A stretch of 64,000 bases of DNA from Warburgia ugandensis. Lineage: Eukaryota > Streptophyta > Magnoliopsida > Canellales > Canellaceae. The stretch covers positions 51,029,880-51,093,879 of the forward strand of contig CP141132.1 in assembly GCA_035236585.1 (NCBI GenBank), given 5' to 3'. A program made the translations under genes and the position numbers. Shown here in pieces: positions 34,701 through 37,700 of this stretch. Below the pieces are notes generated by a model. The model did no database searches, was not told the origin of the DNA, and saw only the letters and a list, made by a program, of their open reading frames with translations. How positions within the stretch are numbered: the stretch's first letter is position 1; each line of letters begins with the position of its first letter.

Positions 34701-37700
34701 ATTTTGGAAGAGATGAATGCTCTAGAAGAAAATGGGACTTGGGAGATAGTTAACTTACCAAGTGGGGAAGAAAATAGTAGGATGCAAATGGGTGTTTATA
34801 GTTAAGTGTAGAGCTAATGGAAGTATAGAAAGGTACAAGGCGTGTTTAGTGGCAAAAGGTTTTACACAAACACACGGTATTGATTATCAAGAGACTTTTT
34901 CTCCAATAGCAAAGATTAATTCAATCTATGTCCTACTATCCTTAGCTGTTAGTCTTGACTGGCCCTTAAACCAACTAGACATAAAAAAGCATTCTTAAAC
35001 GAGGAATTGGAAGAGGAAGTCTTTATGAGCCTACCACCAGATTCTGAAAAACATATTAGTAAAGGAAAAGTGCATAGACTAAGAAAATCTCTGTATGGCC
35101 TAAAACAATATCCTAGAGCATGGATTGAGTGTTTGGGAAAGCTGTAAAGGCCCATGGATGTACACAAAGTCAAGCAGATCACACTACGTTTTATAAGCAC
35201 TCAACAAAAGGAAATATTGCTATTTTAATTGTTTATGTTGACGATATAATATTAATAGGCGATGATCATGTTAAGCTAAAGAGACTCAAGAGAATTCTTG
35301 CTGATAACTTTGAGATCAAGGACTTGGGAATCTTAAAGTATTTTCTTGAAATGGAGTTTGCCAGGTCTAAAAAGGCATCTTCATGTCTCAAAGAAAATAT
35401 GTGTTGCATCTTCTTGGAGAGATAGGTCTACTCAGCTGCAAAGCAGCAGAGACACCAATCGAACCTAATTTGAAGCTCCAATCTGCTAAAACCCAAATAT
35501 GTGAAGAATAGGGAACAATTTCAAAGGCAGGTTGATAGACTGATTTATCTACCGCATACCCACCCAGATATAGCTTTTGCAGTGAGCATGGTAAGTCAAA
35601 TTATGCACTCACCAGCTCTAAAACACTTCGAGGCAGTGTACAGAATCCTAAGGAACTTAAAGGGATCAACAAGGGCGGGCCTGATGTTTGAAAAGCATGG
35701 TCACCTACAAATTGAAGTCTATATAGATGCAGATTGGGCTGGGAGTATAACTGATAGAAGGTCAACCTCTGGCTACTATACTTTTGTTGGAGGAAACCTT
35801 ATTACTTGGCATAGTAAAAGGCAAAATGTGGTGCCAAGAAGCAGTGCTGGAGTCGAATTTAGATCACTTGCCCATGGAATTTGTGAGTTGTGGATTAAAA
35901 GAATCTTAGAGGAACTTAAAGTCTCAAGTCCCTCCTCGATAAAGGCATACTATGATAACAAAGCAGCAATCTCAATAGCACATAACCAGCTTGAGGGGAA
36001 GTGTTGGAAAAGAGAATATTCAACTGAGATGTCTTGCTAATCTCTAGGGATTGTATTCAGCTGAGATGTCTTGCTAATCTCTAAGGATTGTCTAGCTATA
36101 TTTTATATGTAAATATAGGCTAGTCAACTTTGTAAATAAGGAAACTTAACCGTATGGTTACTTTGTTCCTTTTCAGTACCTTGTAAAGACTATAAGTAGC
36201 ATACATGTATTTCATAATAAGATATCATCGTTTTCTCAAAAATAATTCTTTTCTAATTCCTTATTGTTTAGAGTATTAAATATCTCCTATAATAACAGCC
36301 CATGCATTTGATAATAACAGCCTCTTGTGTACATTCTTAAAAAAGGTAAGAAAAAATTAAATAAGAAAGGAGAAACTTGTATAAAACCAGCCAAATTGTT
36401 ACCTCTAAACTTAGGGTTGAATAAATTATTTCTGAATCTTTTGTAAATTTTTTAAAAATATTTAAATTACAAAAATCAAAACTAGATAGTAATCAAAGTT
36501 TCTATTTTAGACCTGGACTGAAAGGAAAGCCAAAATGAAATTGACAACATTGCAGTTGGAAAACTGGGGAATCTGAGAAGATTTCTCTGGAGAGTTTGCT
36601 GGTAAAGAAACCACAGTGTTCTCTACATCTTCGCCTCGAATTAGAGTTCCAACTCAGATTTAAAGAACTAATGCTGTTCAGAATATTTGCAATTATTATC
36701 TGGGTCATATGCCCTGGCTGACAATAAACTGACTGTCATGCCGACGTCTGTGTTTAGTGCCCTGTGTTTCTTTCTTCTTCTCCCGTTTTATTTATCACCT
36801 CTCACATAGTCTAATGAATTTCACCTGGTTATTTGATTCATAGCCTTGACCTGAGGCACCTTGTTCTTCTTCCTGTCATTTACATAGGAGCACAATAAAC
36901 AGCTAGTTGATACCTGCTCTGGATGAGAGTTAAAAACAGAGACTAAACTCCTAGGATGTATTTTGGATAGTAAAATTCTTGTTATGTGACTCGTTATCTG
37001 GAAGAGAATTAACTTAAAGCCTCCATCCACCAAAGAAAATGACGATAGTTTCAGTATCATGAACCTAGAATGCCACTGACAACTACTTTGTCTTCTATCC
37101 ATAGAAGCTAATGCAGAAAGGATGAACAATAAGGGACAAACATGAGAATGTCAGTGCTAAGTTCAATTCTGGTATACAGTTCCGATTAGCAAGTAATGCC
37201 TTTCATTAGCTGGCAATTAATCCAACTTCAAAATAAATGATAAGGGAAAAAGAAAGCTAATACGGAGAATTAATCACGGCTTACCAACATGTGATGGAAG
37301 AACTGTAATGTGTGGGTGTGAGTGGTACCATCCAATCACCCTCGTTGTTCTTCCTGTAGCCAATGTCATTCTGTGCTAGAGAATTAAGTTAAACAAGTAG
37401 TAGCCACCAATAATCCTTAGTTCCAAATTTTGGGAAAAAAAAGAAAGAAAATGGTAGAAATTAGGTAATAAAAAATAAGATAGAAGAAACAGAAACATTG
37501 ATGGATATTTCAGCCTGAGCAGATGCTGCTGCCAGCTGCTCAGGATTGGTCTCAACTCGGTCCTTACGACGATCAGATCGTGTCTGAGGCGAGGCACCCC
37601 AGATCAAAGCTGTGGCACTCCCATTATCTGATTGCTGAAAATTCTCTCCAACATTAATACGAACAAGAAAAATGAAAAGATCATTCACAAGACTTCTAAG

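Follow-up and report, generated by a model that had tools for sequence, protein, structure and literature searches.

A probable U12-type AT-AC intron in the BRCC36 gene of Warburgia ugandensis

Introduction

In U12DB, two U12-type introns of Arabidopsis have a human U12-type orthologue, and one of the two lies in BRCC3, that is, in the same gene family as the BRCC36 gene considered here, so that a U12-type intron orthologous between plant (Arabidopsis thaliana) and animal (Homo sapiens) is on record for this family; the same source holds that U12DB probably misses distant orthologues (PMC2831892, in the portion available). AT-AC introns are rare, as the first-pass annotation of the present DNA had stated, the mean share of AT-AC pairs among plant splice sites being 0.06% (PMC6310983, available portion). 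They account for 26% of the U12-type introns of Arabidopsis (PMC7367187, likewise in part), and among conserved plant minor introns about 4% have non-canonical ends, of which almost 75% are AT-AA (PMC10639083, in part). The U12-type branch site is TCCTTAAC-like and lies 10-15 bases before the 3' junction (PMC2426677). U12-type introns and BRCC36 are both mentioned in the accessible text of PMC12475092, and a U12 intron within BRCC36 was not found in that text.

Here we describe intron 2 of the BRCC36 gene of Warburgia ugandensis, from a window (the whole stretch of DNA analysed) of 64,000 nucleotides. The first-pass annotation had proposed a check against BRCC36 orthologues, and the published BRCC3 intron common to Arabidopsis and human answers it in kind, although the portion of PMC2831892 available gives neither its codon position nor its terminal dinucleotides and the present copy comes from another plant; the two introns probably occupy the same position. 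Like plant U12-type AT-AC introns generally, intron 2 has an ATATCC donor and an AC end, is short and stands amid GT-AG introns. Unlike them, it has A rather than T at +7; its branch site is weak, and an AG precedes the AC by three bases.

Results

The minus strand of the window carries a complete BRCC36 gene of ten coding exons, running from 50954 to 4573 and encoding 443 amino acids (Table 1). The exons were found by a protein-guided search, for which a plant sequence was used solely to locate them, and their exact borders were read from the DNA sequence. The protein contains a JAB/MPN domain (PF01398, 65.1 bits) and the BRCC36 C-terminal helical domain (PF18110, 80.2 bits), both above the Pfam cut-offs, and the solved structures closest to it in sequence are BRCC36 chains. 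Judged by this make-up the product is BRCC36, a JAMM-type deubiquitinase of the DNA-repair type, predicted to cleave K63-linked ubiquitin. The HSHPH of exon 3 we take to be part of the JAMM/MPN+ zinc motif. A homologue search in which 7992 candidates were scored returned 1456 proteins at E <= 0.001, and the best 120 of the 1456 were used; nearest among these 120 is a protein of Tasmannia lanceolata (Winteraceae, Canellales; 82%). When the same genome (assembly of 1.12 Gb in 14 contigs) was searched for paralogues with a 114-residue query, the best candidates, which alone were scored, yielded no more than this locus, matched in three exons, and a single hit with 33% identity on contig C2. GT-AG ends are found in eight of the nine BRCC36 introns, intron 2 being the exception.

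Table 1. Positions, in the 64-kb window, of the BRCC36 exons, the three introns discussed and the candidate splice signals of intron 2
Feature	Positions	Strand	Details
Exon 1	50844..50954	-	coding part from ATG
Intron 1	37635..50843	-	GT-AG, 13,209 nt; LTR-element remains (reverse transcriptase, RNase H, integrase-end matches)
Exon 2	37509..37634	-	126 nt
Intron 2	37373..37508	-	probable U12-type AT-AC, 136 nt, phase 0, between Glu79 and Arg80
Predicted U12-type 5' splice site	37501..37508	-	ATATCCAT, 7/8 to RTATCCTT
Best branch-site candidate	37388..37396	-	TTGTTTAAC, 7/9; branch A at 37389, 16 nt from AC end
Second branch-site candidate	37383..37391	-	TAACTTAAT, 6/9; A at 37384, 11 nt from end
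Alternative 3' end TAG	37376..37378	-	3 nt upstream; would add one His (AQAEHRMT)
3' splice site CAC	37373..37375	-	AC end
Exon 3	37285..37372	-	88 nt; encodes HSHPH
Intron 3	10066..37284	-	GT-AG, 27,219 nt; LTR-element remains and other repeats
Exon 4	9980..10065	-	
Exon 5	9682..9897	-	
Exon 6	7965..8161	-	
Exon 7	5197..5355	-	
Exon 8	5009..5089	-	
Exon 9	4860..4914	-	
Exon 10	4573..4785	-	coding part to stop codon

The first-pass annotation had placed a U12-type AT-AC intron of 136 nt within BRCC36, and its coordinates proved exact on the minus strand: between exons 2 and 3 the intron begins ATATCCAT (at greater length ATATCCATC) and ends CTAGCAC. Borders of seven dinucleotide types, at least 60 nt apart, were tried throughout the region 37634-37285, and the resulting proteins were scored against the Tasmannia protein. 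There are 184 in-frame, stop-free pairs, and the best score (676) belongs to the AT-AC pair 37508-37373; sliding this cut by one base gives an identical mRNA because an A stands on both sides. The runner-up is the AT-AG pair 37506-37371 (668), which reads AQAEIMT and so replaces R with I, and third is the AT-AG pair 37508-37376 (665), which reads AQAEHRMT with one extra His. The earlier statement that only the AT-AC ends restore AQAE/RMT is thus right for that exact reading, but these two AT-AG pairs are also in frame and stop-free. The CAC end yields both the best protein and the junction type shared by 104 of the best 120 homologues. If intron 2 is retained, the reading continues for 15 codons as ISINVSVSSILFFIT and then meets a stop, giving 94 amino acids without HSHPH.

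The ends of the orthologous introns were deduced from protein letters, which do not fix the bases. In those 104 of the best 120 homologues AE or AD is joined directly to exon 3, whose first residues are RMT in 80, RMS in 15, IMT in 5, KMT in 2, and KMS and IST in one each; in the IST model (Persea P0006) the border may be misplaced. All 18 transcript-type proteins among the best 120 are seamless in this way; 16 of them come from 'lgn' contigs only, P0002 is a Trinity transcript, and P0097 is assumed to be of transcript origin. Some of the 18 may be close relatives and thus not independent. The 'lgn' contigs were taken as transcript-derived because, at 1349-1955 bases, they are too short for an intron-rich gene left unspliced.

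Residues are inserted at the junction in 11 of the best 120 models, and in ten of the 11 the insert starts I-S-F or I-S-L straight after AE or AD (P0044, P0046, P0059, P0062, P0065, P0090, P0103, P0107, P0108 and P0116; genera Rhamnella, Xanthoceras, Acer, Theobroma, Camellia, Malus, Papaver, Escallonia, Craigia and Euphorbia). I-S-(F/L) is the in-frame reading of ATATCCTTN and fits an unrecognised ATATCCTT donor, so that these models are most simply read as the work of annotation software that refuses an AT-AC donor. In Stephania P0017 one His is added (AQAEHKMT), which is what an AT-AG cut 3 nt further upstream gives, and in five other models (P0057, P0079, P0082, P0091 and P0104) junction residues are lost or replaced. 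In the 16 non-seamless models the residue preceding exon 3 is His 11 times, the remaining five having Asn, Tyr, Ile, Leu or Cys, once each. His fits a CAC end, and Asn and Tyr are compatible with an AC end; Ile, Leu and Cys are not, and in those three models other borders may be misplaced.

The Stephania reading, together with the third-ranked score and a distance of 13 nt from the branch A of TTGTTTAAC to the TAG, is what would be expected if the main form were cut at 37376 and carried one added His. We consider this very unlikely, as the extra His is absent from 18 of 18 transcript-type and from 104 of the 120 listed homologues; it would also, presumably, sit in the helix just before the catalytic strand, which counts against it. 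The other register, AT-AG 37506-37371 (ATCCATCA...CACAG), has the second-best score and a gapless junction, and IMT occurs at the same place in five of the 104 seamless homologues. Its donor ATCCATCA, however, matches neither the U2 nor the U12 consensus by eye, and Camellia P0065 and Escallonia P0107 have a His before IMT, so that their Ile looks exon 3-encoded; this register is extremely improbable. We attach next to no credence to a U2-type intron, be it a rare U2 AT-AC or a GC-AG or GT-AG pair nearby. The GC-AG pair 37514-37376 is in frame (AQHRMT), and the Rubus P0057 and Citrus P0079 models look annotated that way, but it loses the conserved Ala-Glu; in-frame GT-AG pairs exist too, but those among the 25 best-scoring candidates insert at least five residues, an arrangement seen in no transcript-type homologue. 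The U2-type AT-AC introns in the available portion of PMC2831892 carry G at +5, where intron 2 carries C.

The donor of the preferred AT-AC pair, 37508-37373, is close to ATATCCTT, with C at both +5 and +6. The third intron codon is ATC (Ile) instead of TTN, and +7 is therefore A rather than T; the ten translated orthologue introns imply T at this place (or C for Leu). AT-starting 8-mers that agree with RTATCCTT at 7/8 or better occur at 76 of 127,728 positions on both strands, the intron 2 donor included, and the chance of such a donor at a fixed border is about 6 in 10,000. When an AC end 136 nt downstream and agreement of at least 7/9 at the branch site are also required, two of the 127,728 positions are left, one of which is intron 2. 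The other (TTCCTTGGC; ATATCCTT...AC, plus strand, 1464-1599) is without a branch A and was set aside as a coincidence. The branch-site-like strings that had been reported 11-16 nt from the 3' end are both present, as the two candidates of Table 1. A branch match of 7/9 was reached within the allowed range in 649 of 5000 dinucleotide shuffles of intron 2 and is not significant alone, so TTGTTTAAC supports the U12 type without proving it.

By Rfam search, U12, U11 and U6atac genes are all present in the same genome, with scores of 94.3, 73.6 and 96.2 bits against cut-offs of 53, 39 and 33, respectively; the U12 gene is full-length, and 12 weaker U6atac matches also exceed the cut-off. Within the 64-kb window no Rfam family reached its cut-off. 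This U12 contains GUAAGGAA and this U6atac contains AAAGGA, which we take to be the stretches that recognise the branch site and the donor, respectively. For the branch site and the plant's own U12 the computed duplex energy is -2.1 kcal/mol, compared with -8.6 kcal/mol for the consensus site, and for the donor and U6atac it is -3.4 compared with -5.7 kcal/mol, all being rough two-strand values and no prediction of splicing. Both pairings are thus weaker than at consensus sites, which counts against the U12 type.

The position of so short an intron beside one of 27 kb had been singled out by the first-pass annotation. Both sizes stand, and the surprise is unwarranted: transposon remains fill part of intron 3, which therefore needs no special link to intron 2. 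The remains of an LTR element lie at 31331-36272, with Pol_BBD, gag_pre-integrase and retroviral SH3-like matches between direct repeats (31331-31516 and 36087-36272) that are 93% alike, and our reading of the domains suggests a Copia-like make-up. Also in the window, at 13250-22506, is an older pair of direct repeats, separated by about 8.6 kb and 77-81% alike; a 474-residue open frame between them is without a Pfam match and overlaps an internal repeat array (15634-16485). Intron 1 holds LTR-element remains at 43883-49229 (direct repeats 43883-44131 and 48981-49229, 95% alike) with RNase H and integrase-end matches and an RVT_1 match that fell below the cut-off in one search and above it in another; by its domains we would call this element Gypsy-like. 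An open frame of intron 1 at 40457-40903 gives two weak, unrelated Pfam matches (Orf78 and the Srv chemoreceptor), probably through compositional chance.

Discussion

To judge from the sequence, intron 2 is in all likelihood an old, conserved U12-type (minor-spliceosome) AT-AC intron of plant BRCC36. The U12 interpretation already given in the first-pass annotation has stood up: it is supported by the position, the ends, with C at +5 and +6 of the donor, the frame, the homologue junctions, both the 18 seamless transcript-type proteins and the ten models that read through into IS(F/L), and the U11, U12 and U6atac genes of the same genome.

In minor splicing, U11 and U12 engage the donor and the branch site jointly; the donor then passes to U6atac, and cleavage follows at the AC end. 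At intron 2, the sites recognised by U11/U12 would be the ATATCC donor and the branch region TTTAAC, U6atac would replace U11 at the donor, and a cut after CAC would join Glu79 to Arg80. The 94-residue product of the retained intron lacks HSHPH, and full BRCC36 activity would therefore depend on minor splicing; RNA that retains the intron would also be open to nonsense-mediated decay. It is conceivable, if unlikely, that the A at +7, the weak branch site and the tandem TAG/CAC make splicing inefficient or alternative, with the minor spliceosome setting the level of active BRCC36 and the isoform with the extra His being made as well.

Intron 2 belongs to a rare class, yet to a kind already recorded in the BRCC3 of Arabidopsis and human, and we regard it as an ordinary but well supported case that is very probably real. 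The present analysis contributes a further lineage, an exact structure and the repeated misannotation of the BRCC36 junction. As ten models carry translated intron and six more are altered at the junction, BRCC36 sequences in the databases are faulty for several plants. Correct placement of intron 2 restores the catalytic domain in the gene model, and the BRCC36 case shows how minor introns get misread.
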